Virus record (IMG/VR): IMGVR_UViG_3300010354_000183
Span: 1 to 42,798 of that record
Direction: 5' to 3' (one strand)
Source of the DNA: a virus
DNA: 42,798 nt
A model generated the notes under the pieces. The model did no database searches and was not told where the DNA came from. It was given only the letters and a program-made list of their open reading frames with translations. Shown one piece after another: positions 18,127 through 35,102 of the stretch (position 1 is its first letter; each line of letters begins with the position of its first letter). The position numbers were made by a program, and so were the translations under genes.

Positions 18127-18452
18127 GTTTTTTCTTTGAGGTGTTTTTCTGCATCTTCTCGGACATTGAGGTTTTTGTTTTTAAAGCTGCCAAAATGGCC
18201 AAACTTTAAATGACAGTTATCTTTCCCTGGTTTATCGCACAACGTAATAAGGTTGTTTACATCTAATTCTAAGGTCGGGTTTTCATGAAACGGCTCAATA
18301 TGGTGAACTTCTAAAAACTCTGTGCAGCCGCAAGCTGCACATGAGCTATAAGTTTTTAAAAAAGATTTGCGTAATGACGGCCACTTGGAAGAGCGTTTGG
18401 AGAAAAGTTTGGTTTTTCCCTTAATTACATCTTTTACGTGGCCAATAATCAT
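18117..18452 (-). CDS. HNH endonuclease, 111 aa
   Basis: The product contains CAACGCTEFLEVHHIEPFHE (about 37-56), NNLITLCDKPGKDNCHLKFG (about 66-85): two CxxC-type cysteine pairs around the catalytic HH, the Asn and the final His of the HNH beta-beta-alpha-metal fold. Small HNH proteins of this type are often encoded near phage terminases and help packaging nicking, and others are homing enzymes. Its ATG shares one base with the tail-fibre stop (TAATG), with no clear ribosome binding site, so translation is coupled. All catalytic residues appear intact. Confidence 0.85.
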   Translation of the reverse strand: MIIGHVKDVIKGKTKLFSKRSSKWPSLRKSFLKTYSSCAACGCTEFLEVHHIEPFHENPTLELDVNNLITLCDKPGKDNCHLKFGHFGSFKNKNLNVREDAEKHLKEKTKG

Positions 18453-21400
18453 TATGGCGCTAAGGTAGGGGTAGAGGGCAATTGAACAACGCTGAGGGTG
18501 TTTTGTAGCTTTATGTTTCTTGGCTGCAAAACAGCAATATGATTAAAAGAAATCATATCGTAAATCATTGTTCCGGTGCCTCTTACGCAATATCCTGTAC
18601 CGCTTGCCACATCAAACATAGCGAGAGTCGAAACAACAAACACACCGTTTGTCGCAACTGAAACTCCGCTTCCGTTTGCGGTCAAATTACGGATAAGGGA
18701 TGAACTAACAGCGCATGTTGCGCCCGCTGCAACTTGAACGATTTCAGCGGCAGAATTAGTCTCTATGCCAGAAAGGGCCACCTGCGCAAGACCGCCGTTT
18801 ACGACTAATGCTTTTGAGGCGCCGTAGAGGTCGGAATTAGTAATTCTTAAAAATCTTACATTTGTTGTGATTAATGTTCCGTCTGTGCTGGCCGCATTAA
18901 TAATACATCCGTCCATTCTCACGGTTGTTGCGGAGGTGTCTGTATTTGTTAAGCTTACTAGGCTAGAAGTTCCTGACCCTCTGTACACATAACAGCCGCT
19001 TAGGTTAAGGCGCACTGGGGCTGTACCGCCGAGCGAAACTCCGCTGGCAGTAGAGCTAGCATTAATAAGCACATTTGAGATAAATACTTGATTGTCTACA
19101 GCTGAGCCACTTGTTGGGGCAAAGTTAAGTTTACCAACAACAATGCTGGTGTTTCTTGCCGCACCCAATCCAATAATATCAACGCGCCCCTTAAGTGTTG
19201 CATCGCCCCAAACGCCTTCACCGAGGAGGATTACCTGCCCAGGGGAAGCCGCATCAATAGCTGCCTGCAAAGTTGGATATTCGCCACCGGCTAAACACCA
19301 AATTGCAGAGCCTTTTTTCATATATTGTGCAGCGTAGTCTTTAACAGCGGATACGGACGGAGCTAAATCTGATTGCAAGCCAGACATATTATTAATAATT
19401 ACAGCATTTTTTGCTCTTGTTTCATTAAAATAAAGGTTTTGCGAACCTTCAGTAATTTGATCTGACCCTAAGCTAATTGCTCCGGACAAACCATTTACGG
19501 ATGAAACATAATTAAGTGCCGCAATTTGAGCGTCGGTATAGCTTTTAGCAGTCTGGACAGCCTGAGCATCTCCAGCCGTTCTGCTGGTAATTTCAGCATT
19601 TAAGTCAATCTTAGAAGATTTGCGAATCTCAAGCTTAGACTTGCGTTTAATTGCAGAGCTATAAACACCGACCGATTCAGCAACAAACTGACAATTATTA
19701 GCGGAAGTTCCTGAATCAGAGCCAAGTGCGGCTGTCAATACACGCTCGGAAGCCTCTCTTGTGCCATTTGAGCTAGATGACGGAGACATAGATAGGCGAG
19801 GCAACTCAGGATGAACTTTAGGATCTTGACCAAAGTGCATGAGATACTTAACGCCAACCACAGCGGAACTGTCAGCAACGTAAACTACTCTTGATTTGTA
19901 CCAGCTGGCTGCGTTTCCAGACGCAGTCGGAGTTGTATAAACCGCCAAAAATGGCTTACTAACAACTGAGTCAAAAGTTACCACCGCGTATGCACTAAAG
20001 TCTCCAAGAGAAATGTTCTCTTTCGATCCGTCAAAGAAATACCAGTTAATTTTCTGCCCTTGAGCAGCATTTTTAAAATACCAACCATCTCGATTGTTTG
20101 GATCTTGAGTGCCAGCAAGCGCATCTGCATAAACAGCGGAATTGTTTTCAAATAAAGAGGTAACTTGGGTATTAAGATTTAAATTAATATCAACAATTTT
20201 GACATTTAAAACTGCATTTTCAGCGGAACGATTTGAAATTTCTAAATTAATTGAACTTTGCAAAGCGTTATCTGCACTTTGACGAGCTTGTTGTTCAAGT
20301 GTCATCGCCTCTGAACGGTCAAAAATTTCTTGGTCAATCTTAGCATCAAGGGCTTCTTCCGCGTTTGTTGCGCGAACTCCTTCATCAGCAATATCAGCCG
20401 AAATTGCCTCATCAGCGGCTTGGCGCGCCATCACCTCATCGGCAATTTCTTGGGCTCGATTAGACGCTTCGATTGCAATGGTATTTTGAATTAAATCATC
20501 GGCGGCTACTCGCGCAATTATTTCCGATTCGAGAGCGCCTTGAGTGGCTGCAATTAAAGCTTGCAACGAAGCCTCGGTTGCAATAGCTCTTGTCTCCTCG
20601 GCATCAATCCTAAATTGAACGTCGCCGATTTGACCAGCGACGGTAGCGGCAAAACTGGCGTCGCCACCGATTGCATCGGCAAGCTCCTTAAGCGTATCAA
20701 GAACCGCAGGAGCTGAAGCAACCAAGTCCGCAACCTTTTGGTCAGCGTATGATTGAGCCGAAATTAGAGTTGCAGCATCGCCTGCAATGCGGGCAGAAGC
20801 TTCCGACGAAACAGCAGCGGCACGGGCAGCTACTTCGGCGTCGATAGTACCTTGGAGCGCCGTGTCGTTTGCTGCACGGGTTGCAGCTTCAGCCGAGACA
20901 GCAGCCTGACGGTCGCTGATTTCCATGCTGAGCGAAGCTTGAAGTGCAGCTTCAGCGTTCTGAGCGCGGGTAATCTCAGCTGAGATGTTGTTTTGGAGAA
21001 CAAGGTCATCAGCTTCGCGTGCCGATGTTTCAGAAGTTAAGCTTGCCGAAAGAGCCGAGTCAGCATTTCCGCGAGTCAGCGCTTCAGCAGCAACTGCGCC
21101 TTCAAGAGCAGTGACGGAAGCTTGGAGAGCAGCTTCTGCAACCTGAGCGCGATTGATTTCCGATGCCAAGCTTACCGAAAGAGCAGCTTCTGCAGCGGCA
21201 GCGCGAACTTCTTCAGTGTCAATTTTGGCCTGAAGTGCAGCGTCTGCAGCTTCGCGAGCGGCAGCTTCCGCAGACACGGCAAATTGACGGTCACTGACTT
21301 CAGTACCGATGGAAGCTTGAAGCGCAGCTTCAGCGTTCTGAGCGCGAGTGATTTCGCCTGAGATGTTGTTTTGAAGAACAAGGTCTGCGTTTTCGCGGGC

Positions 21401-24400
21401 TGATACTTCAGAAGCCAAGTTTGCCGAAAAAGTTGACTCAGCGTTTCCGCGAGTCAGGGTTTCAGCAGCAATCGCAGCTTCAAGGTCAGCGACAGATGCC
21501 TGCAAATCAGCTTCAGCATTCTGAGCGCGGCTGATTTCGCTGCTAAGCGACAAGGTAAGAGCAGCTTCTGCAGCGGCAGCGCGAGCTTCTTCAGCAGCGA
21601 TGGCAACTTGAAGAGAGTCTTCAGCCGCCATTGCGCGTGTTTTTTCAATCAAATCGCCCGCAATACGTGCAGATTCTTCGGAAAAATCGGCACTTTGACG
21701 TAAGTCTGCTTCAGTATTGATATTATTTTGAAGAATATTGTCTGCAGCAATTCGCTCAGTTTTTTCCACATCAATTTCGCTGCTTAGCGCGTTATCGGCG
21801 ACTTGACGAGCGGAGGCTTCTGCTTGAACATTGGTTGTGCTATTGTTGGCTAGTTCTAAAATTGTTCCTTGAATACTAGCATCAGCGGTCTGAAACGCAG
21901 TTACAATTTCAGACAAGGAATCAAGAGCATCTGGATTAATGTTTAAAAGAACAGCGTCAACCCTTGCTGCAAGATTAGCCTCTGCGGCCAACGCTCTTTG
22001 CTGCTCAGAAAATACCTCTGCGTCTGTATATGACTTGGCATCTTTAAGGGCTTTTGCAACCGAACCTGTAACAGTATCAGAACCTTCTAACATATTAAGA
22101 CGATTTGATAAATCATTATCTGCCCCCACACGGGCTGCAGTTTCTGCGTTATCTGCGGAAATACGATTAAGAACCTCAATATCAATTTTTTCTTGAAGCT
22201 GAGCATCAGCCGCCATGCGGGCTGATTTTTCAGCATCGGCAGAGTTTTGCACTTCCATAACAGAGGCAGCGCGGAAAGCTGTTTCTTCATTTAGCGCCGC
22301 TTGAAGAGCGTTTTCTGCCGCAATTGCGCGAGACATTTCAACAAGATCGGATGCTTCTCTAGCAATTATTTCTTCACTTAAAGCCAATAAAATACTTGCA
22401 TCGCCCGATTCACGAACTGCGGCTTCCTCGGACAGGCTTGCTCCTAAAGCGGAGTCGCTGGCGGCGCGGGCGGACCGCTCTTCGCTCAAATTAAAATCAC
22501 TCGATGAAGCAAGGCTTGAGATGGCGGCTTGAATTTCAGAATCAGCGGCCTGAAACGCGGTTACAGCTTCTGCCAACGAATCAAGAGCGTCTGGGTCGAT
22601 ATTTGCAAGAACATTGTCAATTCTTATTGCAAGTGCAGACTCTGCCGCTAGGGCGCGAGTGGTTTCTAAATCAATCTCTGCTCTTAACGCCTCATCGCCG
22701 TTTTGGCGCAAAGATGCCTCTGCATTAATAGCGTTTGTAGACGATATACTAGACGCTTGCTGTTGTGTTCTAAAATAGTTAGCAAGTTCATCTACTTGAA
22801 TCTGCAAAAAGCTATCGCCGGCAACTCGGCTGGATTGCTCTGCGGCGATTGCTGCGTCTAAGGATGAGTCTGCATTTTGACGAGCGGTAATTTCTGCGTC
22901 GATTTCATCTTGACGAGTTGAAATTTCGCTGTCTATTTGATTTTGAAGCGACTGATACGCTTCGTCTCTTTCCTGAGCTTCTAGTTCAATAGCGGTTGCA
23001 AGGGAATTGTTTGCCGCAATTCTTGCGGTTGCCTCATCGTCTACCTTAGATGAGCTATTAATAGCGAGGCTGGAAATTGCGCCCTGAAGATTGGAGTCGG
23101 CATCTTGAAACGCTGCGACGATTTCTGACAACGAATCGAGCGCATTTGTATCTAAGTTAGACAGTACATTATTAATACTCGCTTGAAGTGCAGCATCAGC
23201 GGCTTGACGAGCTGCGGCTTCTGCTGAAACAGCAGATTGCCTAGACAAAACCTCATTATTAATAGATACTTGCAGAGTATTATCGGCGCTTTCGCGTGCT
23301 GTTTTTTCGGCGTCAATCTTTCCTTGCAACGCTAAATCTGCATTTTGACGAGCTGCGGCTTCGGTTGCCAGCGCACTTTGTCTTAAAACGATTTCAGCGT
23401 TAAGATTATTTTGTATAGTATTATCAGAATTTTGTCGAGATGCCGATTCCAAGCCGAGGTTGTTTTGAATTGTCGAATCAGCTTCCGCTCTTTGGGTGCT
23501 TTCATGAGCAATCATGCTTTGAAGATTTGCAATGTTTGCAATTCTTGCAGACACCTCTTCGGCAACCTCAGCCTTGCGAGCGGTTGATTCGATATTGATT
23601 GCGTTTTGTAATTGATTGTTGGCAGTTATTCTGGCTGCTTGTTCAGATGAAATGTTGTTTTGCAAAGCTGCATCTGCGTTTTGACGAGCAACTTGCTCTG
23701 CACTGAGAAGAGAGGACATGTCCATATCACTGGATTGTCTTATTGAAATTTCTGCATTTAAAGAAATTAAAAGTGAATTTTCAGCAGCTTGCGCACGAAC
23801 CACTTCCGCAAAGAGAGAATTGGATAGGCCAGACTCAACGGATTGGGCGCGGCTTACCTCGTTGGAAAGCAAAGATGATAAATTGGCGTCGGCCTGTGCG
23901 CGAGCGGCAACTTCATTATTTATTAAAGTTTCAAGCGTATTTTTTTGATTATTCAGTGATTCCGCAAGAGAGAGTTCCGCGCTTACAATCGAAGTTTGCA
24001 ATAAACCATCTGCGTCCCTGCGAGACTGCGATTCTGCATTAACGGCGGCAATTCGAGATGCTTTTTCAGCAGAATCTGCGGAAATTCTTTCTGTTTTTTC
24101 AATATTATCAGCATTTTCTCTCAAAGACGCTTCGGCATCAATGGCTGCTATGCGACTATTTTTTTCAGCAGAATCTGCGGCAATTCTTTCTGTTTTCTCC
24201 AAATCGGTATATACCCTAGCGTCTTTGAGCGCTTTTGCGACCGAACCTGTAACAGTGTCAGAACCTTCCAAAACATCCAAACGATTACTTAACAAAGCAT
24301 CGGCGACTTGGCGAACGGTTTTTTCTGCATTTAAATTGACAGTGCTGTTATTTGCCAAAGTAGTAATAGTATTGTTTAAATTTAAATCAGCATCCTGAAA

Positions 24401-24880
24401 TGCGCTTACAATTTCAGACAAAGAGTCTAAGGCAGCGGGGTCTACGTTTGACACCATATTATTAATTTTTGCACTTAAAGATGCCTCAGCGGTAATTGCT
24501 CTCGCGCTTTCTGTGCTAACAGAACTGTCTGTGTAGGCTTTTGCATTTTTTAAAGAATTAGCTATAGATCCTGCAACTGCGTCAGAGCCTTGAACTACAT
24601 CTAAACGCTCTTCTAGCTCTTCGTCGGCAGAGCGGCGCGCTTCGGACTCAGAAGCCAATGAGCTATTACGAGCCGCCGCTTCAGCATTGATTTTATTATG
24701 AATTGTTGCATCTGAAGCAATTCTTGCTGTCTGTTCGTTTTGAATCGCAGCAAAAAGCTCTGCATCTGCCGCAATATCTGCGTCCGATCTTTGCTCCACG
24801 CTATTAATTAAGTCTTCGGCCGCATCTTGGGTAACTAAGCTATATCTAATTTGTAACTTGGTTTTATCTTTTAGTGCCAT
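18452..24880 (-). CDS. Giant tail fibre with coiled-coil repeats, 2142 aa
   Basis: Residues about 10-1570 are dominated by imperfect repeats such as SARIAADxxL and AARQNADLALQ, a trimeric coiled-coil pattern. A module with (I/V)(D/N)PxALDSLSEIV(T/S)AFQ recurs at about 145, 577, 760 and 980, with a variant near 1395, and LEGSDTVTGSVAKALKDA occurs twice. Residues about 1573-1740 form a globular beta domain. At about 1793 the motif LSGAISLGSDQITEGSQNLY typical of fibre knobs appears. From about 1853, EYPTLQAAIDAASPGQVILL starts a pectate-lyase-like right-handed beta-helix, likely the receptor-binding tip. Fibres of this length reach far from the virion. Confidence 0.85.
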   Translation of the reverse strand: MALKDKTKLQIRYSLVTQDAAEDLINSVEQRSDADIAADAELFAAIQNEQTARIASDATIHNKINAEAAARNSSLASESEARRSADEELEERLDVVQGSDAVAGSIANSLKNAKAYTDSSVSTESARAITAEASLSAKINNMVSNVDPAALDSLSEIVSAFQDADLNLNNTITTLANNSTVNLNAEKTVRQVADALLSNRLDVLEGSDTVTGSVAKALKDARVYTDLEKTERIAADSAEKNSRIAAIDAEASLRENADNIEKTERISADSAEKASRIAAVNAESQSRRDADGLLQTSIVSAELSLAESLNNQKNTLETLINNEVAARAQADANLSSLLSNEVSRAQSVESGLSNSLFAEVVRAQAAENSLLISLNAEISIRQSSDMDMSSLLSAEQVARQNADAALQNNISSEQAARITANNQLQNAINIESTARKAEVAEEVSARIANIANLQSMIAHESTQRAEADSTIQNNLGLESASRQNSDNTIQNNLNAEIVLRQSALATEAAARQNADLALQGKIDAEKTARESADNTLQVSINNEVLSRQSAVSAEAAARQAADAALQASINNVLSNLDTNALDSLSEIVAAFQDADSNLQGAISSLAINSSSKVDDEATARIAANNSLATAIELEAQERDEAYQSLQNQIDSEISTRQDEIDAEITARQNADSSLDAAIAAEQSSRVAGDSFLQIQVDELANYFRTQQQASSISSTNAINAEASLRQNGDEALRAEIDLETTRALAAESALAIRIDNVLANIDPDALDSLAEAVTAFQAADSEIQAAISSLASSSDFNLSEERSARAASDSALGASLSEEAAVRESGDASILLALSEEIIAREASDLVEMSRAIAAENALQAALNEETAFRAASVMEVQNSADAEKSARMAADAQLQEKIDIEVLNRISADNAETAARVGADNDLSNRLNMLEGSDTVTGSVAKALKDAKSYTDAEVFSEQQRALAAEANLAARVDAVLLNINPDALDSLSEIVTAFQTADASIQGTILELANNSTTNVQAEASARQVADNALSSEIDVEKTERIAADNILQNNINTEADLRQSADFSEESARIAGDLIEKTRAMAAEDSLQVAIAAEEARAAAAEAALTLSLSSEISRAQNAEADLQASVADLEAAIAAETLTRGNAESTFSANLASEVSARENADLVLQNNISGEITRAQNAEAALQASIGTEVSDRQFAVSAEAAAREAADAALQAKIDTEEVRAAAAEAALSVSLASEINRAQVAEAALQASVTALEGAVAAEALTRGNADSALSASLTSETSAREADDLVLQNNISAEITRAQNAEAALQASLSMEISDRQAAVSAEAATRAANDTALQGTIDAEVAARAAAVSSEASARIAGDAATLISAQSYADQKVADLVASAPAVLDTLKELADAIGGDASFAATVAGQIGDVQFRIDAEETRAIATEASLQALIAATQGALESEIIARVAADDLIQNTIAIEASNRAQEIADEVMARQAADEAISADIADEGVRATNAEEALDAKIDQEIFDRSEAMTLEQQARQSADNALQSSINLEISNRSAENAVLNVKIVDINLNLNTQVTSLFENNSAVYADALAGTQDPNNRDGWYFKNAAQGQKINWYFFDGSKENISLGDFSAYAVVTFDSVVSKPFLAVYTTPTASGNAASWYKSRVVYVADSSAVVGVKYLMHFGQDPKVHPELPRLSMSPSSSSNGTREASERVLTAALGSDSGTSANNCQFVAESVGVYSSAIKRKSKLEIRKSSKIDLNAEITSRTAGDAQAVQTAKSYTDAQIAALNYVSSVNGLSGAISLGSDQITEGSQNLYFNETRAKNAVIINNMSGLQSDLAPSVSAVKDYAAQYMKKGSAIWCLAGGEYPTLQAAIDAASPGQVILLGEGVWGDATLKGRVDIIGLGAARNTSIVVGKLNFAPTSGSAVDNQVFISNVLINASSTASGVSLGGTAPVRLNLSGCYVYRGSGTSSLVSLTNTDTSATTVRMDGCIINAASTDGTLITTNVRFLRITNSDLYGASKALVVNGGLAQVALSGIETNSAAEIVQVAAGATCAVSSSLIRNLTANGSGVSVATNGVFVVSTLAMFDVASGTGYCVRGTGTMIYDMISFNHIAVLQPRNIKLQNTLSVVQLPSTPTLAP

Positions 24881-24960: not shown

Positions 24961-27900
24961 CTAGATGCTAAACTTAATTAGTTTTTTCTTTGGTTCAGGA
25001 GCTGGCCCCTGAGAGTCGCCTTCAATAAGGTGCCCCATGCCAGCTTTTCTGTAAGCGTCTATAGTCATTTCAGCTAGTTGCGACGGCATCATAGGGACGC
25101 CCATTTCTTTATAGGTATCGTACATAGCGGCATCAATATCTTTGCGATAGGCTTGTTCGCGGGTCATGGGGGCCTGTTCAATATTCTTTTTGGAGGCGAT
25201 ACGAATTTCCATAGAGGTTCGGTATTTGTCCAACGCATACCGAAAAGCATCGCAGTTTTGTACGGCAACCCCATTAACCGTATAAGACTCGTCATCCTCT
25301 ACCGACAAGGTATAGACTCTGCCAGTGTACTGATGAGTCGATGTCTTTTTAATGAGCATAGCGGAGTATAGACCCTCCGTCTTGATTTTGTTACTAGGCA
25401 TCTCTGCCCTTTTGTCTATTTTTATATTTTTGGCTTTATAGACTTCCTTGATTAGTTCGTCCTCTTGCGTTTTATTCAATAGAATAAGAGTATCGTTAAT
25501 ATCCAAAGTAACGATATATTGGTTATTCTTAAAAGTTGAGCTTTTGCCAATAGAAGCCCACTTCCCAATACACTCCCTAACCCTTATTTTGGGTTTAAGT
25601 CCTACTTTTTGCATCATATAAAGAAGTTGATAAGCCAAATGCTTTGATATCGTTGAAATGACCAAACCATTAGGGGCAAAATGACCATCCCCAAAAGCAT
25701 GGCCAAGAATAACATACCAAGTATTTTCTACACTTAGGTTGTGAATATAGTCTGGATACTTTTTATCTAAGTGAGCGCCAAATGGCTTCAAAACCGTATA
25801 AAGTGGTTTGGAGTTTATACATATCCTATCTCCCAACTCATTGTCCTTTTTATAAGAAAACATATTTTTAATATGAAATTTTGTTGCGATTTTTGAATAC
25901 ACTTCTCTAACCAAAGCTTCTCTTTGATGAATTGCTATGGATATTGTATTTCTGTCTCCGTTTTTAGATTGGCCACAAGAGCCTTCAGCGGCAAAATGCC
26001 CATGGACAAAGGCCATGTATTTGTCAAATTCAATGTTAGTTTCACAAAAATCCATTTTTCTACGGGACATCAACAGGGTATCGGAATATCTTGTCCACTG
26101 AGGAAGCAGTTTAGTCATATCGATAGAAGTAAAGACCTCTGGCGATTCATCAACTCCAAACAATACAGTTTCTTTGTTTTTTGCATTTTTTATTGTTTTT
26201 TGCAATGATTTTGCTGGTTTGAAGCTTGGCTCGCCGACTTTTCGTAACTGTCCAGTAAGCTTTATTCCGTTTTCTGTTTTATTTGAACGCTCAAAAGACA
26301 GTGTAAAGAACGGATGTTTGGGCGTACAGAAAATACTCTCTCTGCCGTATGGCTGTATTTCCAACAACTCCCCGCTGTACTCACTAGACATAACCGCCTT
26401 GACTCGCTTAAAGCGACCCTTGTGAGTCAGTACATAATCATCGGGCTGGACATCTTCAATATTTACAGCGCCCTTACTTGTGATAACTTTGTGCTCTGCA
26501 GTAAAACAAAAGTGAGTGTTATCATCGTCTTCGTATCGACTTGTGTCAAACTCTCCACGGGGGTCTTTCTTGTGCATCCAACCAATCATACAATCAATAG
26601 CAAAGTCCATCCCCGAATCGTTTTCCGTCTTGCAAAATACTACGTCGGACTCTTGACGCTCTACGTTCCACAATAACGACTGAATTTGGCTTACACCTGT
26701 TTCAATTTGAGCTGGCTTTTTAGTTTTGACGGCGAAGCCATACGGCTGAAAATAATGGGCCGAGCCAGCATCGGCCATATCAGGGCAGATAATGTCTGGC
26801 GGAAAAGTCATACATTCTTTTTGTCTAATAGTTTCAGCCCACTGAGAGTTAGGGTAGCCCGTAGCTGCGCGAACGCTTAAAACAATGCAACGCGATTGAG
26901 TTTGTGAATACAGAATTACCGTAACCACGGCGGCATCTCTAACACCCCAGTCAACACCAAAGCTAACTTCCCACTTGTTCGTCACTGCCCAAGCATAGAC
27001 ATCCTGCTTAGTGCATTTTCTATTCGCTTTCCATTGTTGACCAGTTACCCAAAGCCAAGTTTCTTCCACGTTTCTCACGTGAAGATGACGACTAAACGTA
27101 GGAAACACTAAGCCGCCGGTTTCAGGACGCCAGTTCAAAATCTGGGCAATAATCTTATTGGCTTCTTTGGTTTCTTTAATAAAGTTGCCCGTAAAGGCAA
27201 TTGTTCTTAATGTCTTTGACTTGCCTGTTTGCTTAGGAGCGCGAGCTTGACAGGCAATAAACGCAGGACAAGTAACGCAGCCTTCGTAGGCCAATATTTC
27301 TTTGTACTTGGTTTTGATAGCCTGCGGCTCTTCTTGAAATGTCTCCTCATCCCATCTAACTTTAAGGTTTTCCGTATGAAGGTATGCCTTGAGTCTTTTC
27401 TCTCCGTGAACTTCGGGAGGGCACTTTCTCATGAAGTCTACTGCTGACCACTTATCCAACCTAATGTCCGTATCTTCGCCCTTCTCGGCCTCTTCCATCA
27501 ATTCTTGCAAGGGTCCCTGAGAAGTCTTGCGAGACGACAAAGAAATTGTGATTGGCTCAAAGCCGTGTTCGTCTTGAGTAGGGTCGGCAACCATAGCAAC
27601 TTCTGAAAGAATCTCTCTGGGTGTTAAGTCACACTCATCTCGAATGATAATAGACGCACGTGATGAGTTAGCACCTTCAAGGGTTGCTGCTGTCACAAAT
27701 ACGTCTGCATCATCTTTAGATGTATATGAGTTGGGAGGCAAATTAGATAGTCTAAGTTCGCCTGCTCTGTTTGTTTCAAAGTGGTCTTGAAGTTCTGGAA
27801 TACGGAGGAATTTCTTAAGATACTTGATTGCCTTATAAGATTGATCTTTGATGGCGGCAATCTGCAGGCATGACCTTCTAAAGTGAACCATGGCCAACCA

Positions 27901-28191
27901 GTGAATGACTGCCGACATAACGGTTTTCATTGAGTTACGAGAAGCAGCTACGACAACACGATGGGCTCCCTTGTTGGTCCTCATGGTACAGTAAATTTGC
28001 CAAACAGACTCCATAGGATTAGAAGTAGACAGTTCGTCTACTGTACAGTCTGGCAAATCTAGCTTAAGGAAAGTTTTAATAAATTGTTGAAGCTCTTCTT
28101 TAGATTCACAAATAGTAAACAAAAGGCGCTTACGCATCTCAATGCGCAGTCGCTGTTCTTCTGTTATTTCTGGTTCTTTTTTCTTAGCCAT
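24961..28191 (-). CDS. terL: Terminase large subunit (TerL) containing an intein
   Basis: The 1076-residue frame encodes the DNA-packaging motor. The N-terminal ATPase has a variant Walker A, AASRNSMKT (82-90), and Walker B, IIIRDECD (181-188). The C-terminal RNase H-like nuclease has GVDWGVRDA (about 406-414) and ICPDMADAG (about 465-473). The third nuclease motif, HFCDAFRYAL, is interrupted after HF by a 418-residue intein (562-979), leaving a 658-residue spliced enzyme. The start overlaps the end of glpX by eight bases and the ribosome binding site is weak, so translation depends on coupling. Portal and protease genes elsewhere complete the head set. Confidence 0.9.
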   Translation of the reverse strand: MAKKKEPEITEEQRLRIEMRKRLLFTICESKEELQQFIKTFLKLDLPDCTVDELSTSNPMESVWQIYCTMRTNKGAHRVVVAASRNSMKTVMSAVIHWLAMVHFRRSCLQIAAIKDQSYKAIKYLKKFLRIPELQDHFETNRAGELRLSNLPPNSYTSKDDADVFVTAATLEGANSSRASIIIRDECDLTPREILSEVAMVADPTQDEHGFEPITISLSSRKTSQGPLQELMEEAEKGEDTDIRLDKWSAVDFMRKCPPEVHGEKRLKAYLHTENLKVRWDEETFQEEPQAIKTKYKEILAYEGCVTCPAFIACQARAPKQTGKSKTLRTIAFTGNFIKETKEANKIIAQILNWRPETGGLVFPTFSRHLHVRNVEETWLWVTGQQWKANRKCTKQDVYAWAVTNKWEVSFGVDWGVRDAAVVTVILYSQTQSRCIVLSVRAATGYPNSQWAETIRQKECMTFPPDIICPDMADAGSAHYFQPYGFAVKTKKPAQIETGVSQIQSLLWNVERQESDVVFCKTENDSGMDFAIDCMIGWMHKKDPRGEFDTSRYEDDDNTHFCFTAEHKVITSKGAVNIEDVQPDDYVLTHKGRFKRVKAVMSSEYSGELLEIQPYGRESIFCTPKHPFFTLSFERSNKTENGIKLTGQLRKVGEPSFKPAKSLQKTIKNAKNKETVLFGVDESPEVFTSIDMTKLLPQWTRYSDTLLMSRRKMDFCETNIEFDKYMAFVHGHFAAEGSCGQSKNGDRNTISIAIHQREALVREVYSKIATKFHIKNMFSYKKDNELGDRICINSKPLYTVLKPFGAHLDKKYPDYIHNLSVENTWYVILGHAFGDGHFAPNGLVISTISKHLAYQLLYMMQKVGLKPKIRVRECIGKWASIGKSSTFKNNQYIVTLDINDTLILLNKTQEDELIKEVYKAKNIKIDKRAEMPSNKIKTEGLYSAMLIKKTSTHQYTGRVYTLSVEDDESYTVNGVAVQNCDAFRYALDKYRTSMEIRIASKKNIEQAPMTREQAYRKDIDAAMYDTYKEMGVPMMPSQLAEMTIDAYRKAGMGHLIEGDSQGPAPEPKKKLIKFSI
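25255..26508 (-). other. LAGLIDADG intein in terL, 418 aa
   Basis: Splicing signals: Cys1 in CFTAEHKVITSKGAVNIEDV; block B CTPKHPFFTL with the TxxH motif; C-terminal VYTLSVEDDESYTVNGVAVQ ending in Asn, followed by extein Cys980. The penultimate residue is Gln rather than the usual His, a variant known in some active inteins. The centre holds two LAGLIDADG-type blocks, MAFVHGHFAAEGS (about intein 160-175) and VILGHAFGDGHFAPNG (about 262-278), so a homing endonuclease is present. The second block keeps an acidic GDG; the first ends in AEG. Insertion lies directly before the Asp of TerL nuclease motif III. Confidence 0.9.
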
Positions 28192-29086
28192 AAGTTGTCT
28201 TTATGAATCTTCTTTCTTTTGGAGTCAATATAACTGAATGGACCTCATTGTGGGTGACTCCGTTCAACAAGAAAGAGTCTGTCACCCCCGTCGCAATAAA
28301 GGCTATATGTTCACCATGGGCCATGTCTACCGTATCGTACTCTATATCGTCGCGTTTGTGCATTTTGGCAGCCCGCTCTTTCAGTTCCGGCGTATCTAAT
28401 ACTAAACGTCCTAGAATCCTTCCACCCAGACTCTTGACTGCTACAGCCGATACAACACCCTCTGGAGCGCCGCCAATACCCATCAACACATCGTACTTGC
28501 CCATACACACACCAATAGCAGCGAGTACGTCGCCATCACTGATGAGTGATATTTTAGCTCCTAATTCGGTAATTTCTTTAATCAAATCAATATGTCTTGG
28601 CCTATCTAAAACACAAACAGTCAGGTCTTTGACTGGCCTCCTCATTGTGTCGGCAATTGCCTTAAGGTTTTGTGTAGGAGTATTGAATAGACTTACTGAG
28701 GCACTTTTTGCTTTTGGATTAACAACTATCTTGTCCATATAGCAGTCAGGTGCCCGCATTAGGGTCCCCCAATCTCCTACGGCTATTACAGAGATAGCGT
28801 TGGGCTTGCCTTTAGCAACCAACTCAGTTCCTTCTAGTGGGTCTACAGCAATGTCACACTTGTCGCCACGGCCTGTCCCTAACCTCTCTCCAATGTACAA
28901 CATAGGGGCTTCGTCTAGCTCACCTTCACCAATAGCCACAACACCTTGAATGTCCATAAAATCAAATTCTGCCCTCATGGCATCTACAGCAGCTCCATCT
29001 GCTGCATTCTTGTTCATCTTGCCAATCCACTTAGAGCTAGCAAAAGCTGCTGCTTCAGTGACTCGCAAAAACTTAAAAAAATCCAT
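28184..29086 (-). CDS. glpX: Class II fructose-1,6-bisphosphatase (GlpX)
   Basis: The 300-residue product matches GlpX along its length. It has KNAADGAAVDAM (Asp30), IGEGELDEAPMLYIGERLGT (Glu54), DIAVDPLEGT (Asp82, Glu85) and GIGGAPEGVVSA, the metal and phosphate site of the lithium-sensitive FBPase family. E. coli GlpX equivalents are Asp33, Glu57, Asp85 and Glu88. The enzyme converts fructose-1,6-bisphosphate to fructose-6-phosphate in gluconeogenesis, feeding the pentose phosphate route; in autotrophs it serves the Calvin cycle. It is shorter than E. coli GlpX (336 aa), mainly in the C-terminal part. It lies between a small zinc-ribbon gene and terL in a packaging operon, an unusual metabolic cargo. 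Confidence 0.93.
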   Translation of the reverse strand: MDFFKFLRVTEAAAFASSKWIGKMNKNAADGAAVDAMRAEFDFMDIQGVVAIGEGELDEAPMLYIGERLGTGRGDKCDIAVDPLEGTELVAKGKPNAISVIAVGDWGTLMRAPDCYMDKIVVNPKAKSASVSLFNTPTQNLKAIADTMRRPVKDLTVCVLDRPRHIDLIKEITELGAKISLISDGDVLAAIGVCMGKYDVLMGIGGAPEGVVSAVAVKSLGGRILGRLVLDTPELKERAAKMHKRDDIEYDTVDMAHGEHIAFIATGVTDSFLLNGVTHNEVHSVILTPKERRFIKTTYG

Positions 29087-33832: not shown

Positions 33833-33859
33833 TTATCGGAGGGTCAAGGAGAAACTTTA
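33833..33859 (-). promoter_or_regulatory. Sigma28-like promoter A
   Basis: On the minus strand, -35 TAAAGTTT (33859-33852, 8 of 8), an 11-base spacer, and -10 TCCGATAA (33840-33833, 7 of 8). The ATG at 33801 lies 31 bases past the -10, with GGAGG between. Confidence 0.78.
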
Positions 33860-33920: not shown

Positions 33921-34601
33921 TTATTCTTTTGATTCTTCTTCAAGAGCTTTCAAGGCTTCGATACGCTTTTCAGAAGTCTCAAGTAATTCAACGGTTTGAG
34001 CATCTGTGACTTGAGTCTGGGCCTGTGTCTGGCCGCCATTCAATGTTAATGTCTGGTTACTAACATTAACAAGGGGTTGTTTGGCGGAAAGGCGCATAAA
34101 AGCATCAATCTTGTGGACTTCGCCAACAATCCCTAAAAAGTCCTTCATCTCTTTGATGTTTTTTGGTACAAAGCCAGAGTCGCCAGCAGCCATCTCGCCG
34201 GCCAAAACTTTCTTCAAGTCGTTCTCAATCGCAATCTTAGTCATAGTAAAGATTGTGTCAATAGCCTCTTTACCAAAGACCTCTAGAACGCTGCCGTCTG
34301 CTTGTTGGTTGGCCATCTGCATTCTAAGGCACCAGTTGTATCTCAATAAGCTCAAAACGATAGTCTCAGGCAGATGACCTGACTGTCTGGCAATCTGAAC
34401 ACAAGTTCTGCCCATGGCATAGACACCAAATAGGGCGGCTTCTTGAGAAGGACTGACAATCAAAGTCTTTTGAGCTGCTAGTGCCCTCTCGGCAATGTTG
34501 CGTTCTTCTTCTGTTAGCCAAGTATAGTCGCGTTCGTATGCTTCTTGAAGTTCTTTCAAGAGTTTCTGCTGAGCTAGTTGCTGTTCGGTCACTTTAGCCA
34601 T
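33921..34601 (-). CDS. Helix-turn-helix protein, possible terminase small subunit
   Basis: The 226-residue product has ALFGVYAMGRTCVQIARQSG then HLPETIVLSLLRYNW (about 61-95), a helix-turn-helix with the IARQSGHLPE turn, as in terminase small subunits and related packaging recognition proteins. The C-terminal 50 residues are Gln/Thr-rich and end in an acidic helix. TerL is in the same window but separated by several kilobases, so the small-subunit call is tentative. Its ATG has no nearby Shine-Dalgarno sequence; see the hairpin at 34610-34630. Confidence 0.5.
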   Translation of the reverse strand: MAKVTEQQLAQQKLLKELQEAYERDYTWLTEEERNIAERALAAQKTLIVSPSQEAALFGVYAMGRTCVQIARQSGHLPETIVLSLLRYNWCLRMQMANQQADGSVLEVFGKEAIDTIFTMTKIAIENDLKKVLAGEMAAGDSGFVPKNIKEMKDFLGIVGEVHKIDAFMRLSAKQPLVNVSNQTLTLNGGQTQAQTQVTDAQTVELLETSEKRIEALKALEEESKE

Positions 34602-34609
34602 TGTGTATT

Positions 34610-34630
34610 AGTACATATTAAATATGTACT
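34610..34630 (-). promoter_or_regulatory. Hairpin between Shine-Dalgarno and start codon
   Basis: AGTACATAT and ATATGTACT form perfect 9-base arms around three bases. The only Shine-Dalgarno for the gene at 34601, AGAGGA (34639-34634), lies 32 bases from the ATG. With the hairpin folded, the distance falls to about 11 bases. An in-frame stop lies directly upstream of the ATG, so no earlier start is possible. Two further palindromes lie nearby: AGATATATCT (34646-34655) and ATTCGC-A-GCGAAT (34671-34683). Confidence 0.6.
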
Positions 34631-34685
34631 GAGTCCTCTTTTAATAGATATATCTTCTATCCGCAACTCTATTCGCAGCGAATAC

Positions 34686-35102
34686 CTAAATCGAATAAGC
34701 CGGATTTATTTCCGGTAGTTGCGGCAATGTTCTCACAAACTCGATGTCTGCGTCAACTCCGGAAGTCCTCTGAAGTAATAGCTTAAAACCATCCGAGGAC
34801 GCTCTGTGCTTACCGACTCTTTTAAGTTTGACGTGCCTAAGCCAAAACCAACTTAATCTCCCAAACGTATCCCACTTGCCTTCAAGTAAATCTCTATTAA
34901 CAGGACAAAGGAGGATTTTAAAGTCATCGCCATTTTTTTGTATGGCAACGATAGCATCATCCGCGTCAAACCATAACGCGGTGCCGAGCCGCAATTTATA
35001 AATTTGAGTTTGAGTTAAATCAACCCCCAAAGTCTCCTGTCGTACAACCGATGCGAGGGTTTTGCGTTTAATTTTTTTTGTCAAATCAATAACATTACTC
35101 AT
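34686..35102 (-). CDS. Hypothetical protein, 138 aa
   Basis: The product starts MSNVIDLTKKIKRKTLASVV, a basic N-terminus, and has GTALWFDADDAIVAIQKNGD and WDTFGRLSWFWLRHVKLKRV in its middle part. There is no signal or membrane helix despite several Trp. AAGGAG precedes the ATG. It is nine bases downstream of the large fibre-like gene, in baseplate context. No family was recognised. Confidence 0.6.
   Translation of the reverse strand: MSNVIDLTKKIKRKTLASVVRQETLGVDLTQTQIYKLRLGTALWFDADDAIVAIQKNGDDFKILLCPVNRDLLEGKWDTFGRLSWFWLRHVKLKRVGKHRASSDGFKLLLQRTSGVDADIEFVRTLPQLPEINPAYSI

Follow-up and report, generated by a model that had tools for sequence, protein, structure and literature searches.

A probable hairpin-bridged, split ribosome binding site before a candidate small terminase gene in a phage and two of its relatives

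We describe a site that is probably a split, or 'accommodated', ribosome binding site, in which a hairpin bridges the interval between a distal Shine-Dalgarno (SD)-like sequence and the start codon. It lies on the minus strand of a 42,798-nucleotide virus DNA (IMGVR_UViG_3300010354_000183, positions 1 to 42,798), called the window here, and it precedes a 226-amino acid gene at 33921..34601. On that strand the order of elements is AAGAGGACTC-AGTACATAT-TTA-ATATGTACT-AATACACA-ATG, in which the SD-like AGAGGA (34634..34639) is separated by CTC from the 5' arm of the hairpin, AGTACATAT (34622..34630), followed by the UUA loop (34619..34621), the 3' arm ATATGTACT (34610..34618), an 8-nt spacer, AATACACA (34602..34609), and the ATG itself (34601-34599). 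The hairpin is a perfect 9-bp stem spanning 34630-34610, and subtraction of its 21 nt reduces the distance from AGAGGA to the ATG from 32 to 11 nt. An in-frame TAA occupies 34610-34608, only 6 nt 5' of the ATG, and therefore no in-frame start is possible further upstream; moreover, the ATG is the true start, since the proteins of all close relatives align with its product from the first residue of MAKVTEQQ. The sequence-only reading had described a gene with no ribosome binding site within 20 bases, a stop in frame 5' of its ATG, AGAGGA at 32 bases and a perfect 9-bp hairpin that would shorten this distance to about 11; the last three were confirmed by direct reading of the minus strand, and the first by the anti-SD pairing energies given below.

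The anti-SD pairing energy just 5' of the stem was -5.8 kcal/mol in the window and -6.8 and -5.4 kcal/mol in two related contigs with the same arrangement, L002 and L006, whereas the 20 nt before the ATG gave +0.8, +1.4 and +0.8 kcal/mol in the same order, so that strong pairing is found only upstream of the stem. Folded alone, the window hairpin had an energy of -7 kcal/mol (z -4.35), and the 9-bp stems of the three hairpin phages ranged from -7 to -9 kcal/mol; in a 180-nt context, the stem pairs of the window reached probabilities of 0.77-1.0. The longer-context fold was ordinary by z-score (-0.79), and the AUG was partly paired in it (unpaired probability 0.15-0.44), which counts against the split-site reading. 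The chance of the arrangement was estimated per 60-nt upstream region, with a perfect stem of at least 9 bp, an SD of -5 or better and the right spacings; it arose in 4 of 200000 sequences with the dinucleotides of the window and in 33 of 200000 with the region's own composition (2e-5 to 1.6e-4), or roughly 0.1-0.7% over the approximately 40 genes. The hairpin alone is weak evidence, because perfect hairpins of at least 9 bp number about seven in the window, where about one would be expected. Some of these are probably terminators. For the hairpin described here an intrinsic terminator, with its G+C-rich stem and following U run, is not supported, as AAUACACA follows the stem and a terminator scan found none there.

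Relatives were sought by scanning viral collections and bacterial and archaeal genomes, which yielded nine contigs (L002-L010), seven of them distinct; further viral protein scans and the bacterial and archaeal genome scan added none, and annotated phages gave no DNA match. Two of the nine, L002 and L006, share the arrangement of the window, namely an SD, 3-4 nt, a 9-bp stem, 6-8 nt (8 nt in L002, 6 nt in L006) and the ATG; in both, the stem is preceded at the corresponding position by an SD-like GGA, and the loop is identical. All three phages thus have an over-long SD distance with no SD nearer, together with a stable hairpin that brings the distance into the functional range, from 32 to 11 nt in the window and in L002 and from 30 to 9 nt in L006. 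The stop codon of the upstream gene, which in the window encodes 138 amino acids (34686..35102, minus strand), lies 84 nt from the ATG in the window, 46 nt in L002 and 44 nt in L006. In the remaining contigs (L003-L005 and L007-L010) the insert is missing and the ATG follows the upstream stop after 3-4 nt; in other words, the phages without the hairpin are also without the long gap. AGGAG is absent from the orthologues that lack the insert, and all that is present in L003, L008 and L009 is GAUGUGA, which is partially complementary to the anti-SD.

The stem is paired in all 27 cells of a comparison of three phages by nine pairs, where L002 carries one compensatory double change (A-U to G-C) and L006 one change from A-U to G-U; with three sequences only, the covariation amounts to one pair, and 180 of 500 shuffles gave as much. 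The arms themselves, whose conservation had been proposed as a check, are kept in the relatives that have the hairpin. The hairpins of the window and L006 are identical at 20 of 21 positions and those of L002 and L006 at 18 of 21, whereas identity at fourfold-degenerate sites is only about 41-52% (49-52% in the two flanking genes for the window against L006); judged by this sequence comparison, the SD and the stem are conserved beyond neutral expectation. The window and L002 are close relatives, and their hairpins match except for the compensated pair, although between the two the 5' flank that carries the SD has largely been exchanged for a sequence 38 nt longer; despite this exchange, both retain a usable SD 3-4 nt before the stem. 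The outgroups L008-L010 lack the element, and it was therefore probably gained within the group of the window, L002, L003, L006 and L007, and later lost or exchanged, with the trees leaving the order of gain and loss undecided (support 53-67).

From the anatomy of the site, its conservation, the stability of the stem and the anti-SD pairing confined to its 5' side, all of them direct observations, we infer that ribosomes use the site and need the hairpin. On the polycistronic mRNA, AGAGGA would pair with the 30S subunit, and the 9-bp hairpin would remove the intervening 21 nt, placing the AUG about 11 nt from the SD, where it could enter the P site. The element would thereby serve the second of two neighboring genes. 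In relatives with the start 3-4 nt behind the upstream stop, translation is probably coupled to that of the upstream gene; the insert, by moving the start 44-84 nt away, would have broken this proximity, and the split site would supply an initiation signal of its own.

Two other explanations appear unlikely, to about the same degree. In the first, the hairpin is the binding site of a regulator, either in the RNA, as a translational operator, or in the DNA, as an operator formed by a 21-bp palindrome, and spacing is secondary. The core CATATTTAATATG, including the loop, is indeed invariant in the three phages, beyond what a mere spacer needs, and as DNA the hairpin is almost perfectly palindromic; recombination that spread the element could also account for the conserved loop and inner stem. 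On the other hand, the site exists as a single copy per genome with no sign of a regulon, and a pure operator would leave unexplained both the SD that, with the flank replaced, again stands 3-4 nt ahead of the stem and the absence of an SD nearer the start. The site is also not a repeated element, since other exact matches of the motif in viral contigs fall in unrelated contexts, and an Rfam search of the site gave no match. In the second, the SD and hairpin are incidental, and the gene is translated by upstream coupling or SD-independent initiation. The absence of an SD must be read with the caveat that 82 of 414 genes in four genomes of the family, about 20%, have none, such that this gene may not need one, and orthologues in L003 and L007-L010 have no AGGAG and start 3-4 nt behind the upstream stop. 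Against this stand the distance of the stop, 44-84 nt in the three phages that have the hairpin, and the retention of SD and stem beyond neutral expectation. In a scan of the same 414 genes, a 9-bp stem combined with no proximal SD was found only at the three orthologous sites; across approximately 380 kb of family phages no other convincing split site was seen, and the five matches to a loose criterion were not above shuffles (mean 3.4).

A variation in which the site acts as a two-state switch is improbable, although it draws on a feature of two of the phages. Directly after the upstream stop, L002 (5955-5961) and L006 (5957-5963) carry the arm a third time, as GCACTAA or GTACTAA, and this copy varies in step with the stem and could pair with the 5' arm, enclosing the SD; the site would be closed as long as its first part alone is transcribed or free, and pairing of the 3' arm would open it. 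The window has no such copy. If the switch were real, expression of the 33921-34601 gene would be coordinated with upstream translation.

The last two readings are both very unlikely. A transcript that is leaderless or has a short leader, made from a promoter that overlaps the palindrome, would suit the AT-rich region and its TAATAT, but no sigma-70-like promoter was found there, the phage's own promoter class (TAAAG-N15/16-CGATAAG) is absent before this gene, and a promoter would give no reason for an SD at a fixed distance. A minicistron started from AGAGGA at the AUG in the 3' arm (34616, AUG UAC UAA), with reinitiation at 34601, has in its favor that AUG-NAC-UAA occurs in all three hairpin phages, but this follows from the stem sequence; moreover, the codon is sequestered within the stem (pair probabilities near 1) and lies 17 nt from the SD.

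The gene served by the site is a probable small terminase subunit gene, as suggested by a weak match of its product (22% identity over 85%, E 2e-3) to the protein directly before the large terminase of Myxococcus phage Mx1. The product had no match in Pfam and none of significance in PHROG, including to T4 gp25 or gp38, and its AlphaFold model was too poor for use (pLDDT 42). Several other features of this phage family were recorded. The large terminase gene (24961-28191, minus strand) contains an intein with a LAGLIDADG domain, and its apparent orthologue in the L002 contig, which has the same upstream sequence, is an uninterrupted frame of 658 amino acids. Adjoining it is a glpX-type fructose-1,6-bisphosphatase gene (28184-29086, minus strand; PF03320, E 1e-110), an unusual metabolic gene for a phage, and between the large terminase and portal genes lies a repetitive protein of 2142 amino acids (18452-24880, minus strand), which by its appearance only is probably a tail fibre. 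Sites of the form TAAAG(TTT)-N15/16-CCGATAAG precede genes on the minus strand of the window at 33859, 30924, 18126, 14599, 9606 and 9439, six where 0.05 would be expected, and they occur in all nine family contigs searched; their sequence is similar to the sigma-28/FliA promoter consensus. Four family contigs were searched for a sigma-70 region 2 protein, and none had one. The phage may use its host's flagellar or attack-phase sigma factor, which would point to a motile, perhaps Bdellovibrio-like host.

The mechanism is already known from phage T4, and the comparison supports the site as a further, sequence-based case of it. PMC3014915 reports that hairpin-accommodated SD spacing was shown by mutation and probing for genes 25 and 38. 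Gene 38, which the sequence-only reading had rightly named as a known example, has a hairpin that cuts the SD-AUG distance from 22 to 5 nt (PMC3014915); as here, it lies between SD and AUG, but the gene is different and the folded distances here are 11 and 9 nt. In the better studied gene 25, at the 26-25 junction, the reported shortening is from 27 to 11 nt (PMC3014915, citing Nivinskas 1999, Malys and Nivinskas 2009), compared with 32 to 11 nt here, and the site is described as present in close T-even phages and absent in distant ones. Both sites thus split SD from AUG by a hairpin, at an intercistronic junction and in a close subset of relatives. Gene 25 is a baseplate gene shown experimentally to be so served; the gene here is unrelated to it, a probable small terminase gene in a different phage group, and its site is a sequence-based prediction. 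It is not a homologue of the T4 sites, as the gene is another one, with the Mx1 protein as its nearest match, and its origin is apparently independent of theirs. It would extend, by a case of apparently independent origin and with phylogenetic support, a mechanism for which two T4 genes have been the main examples. The phages with and without the insert, and the replacement of the SD flank at constant position, offer a natural series for the origin of such sites, and for annotation the site warns that a missing proximal SD need not imply a wrong start.
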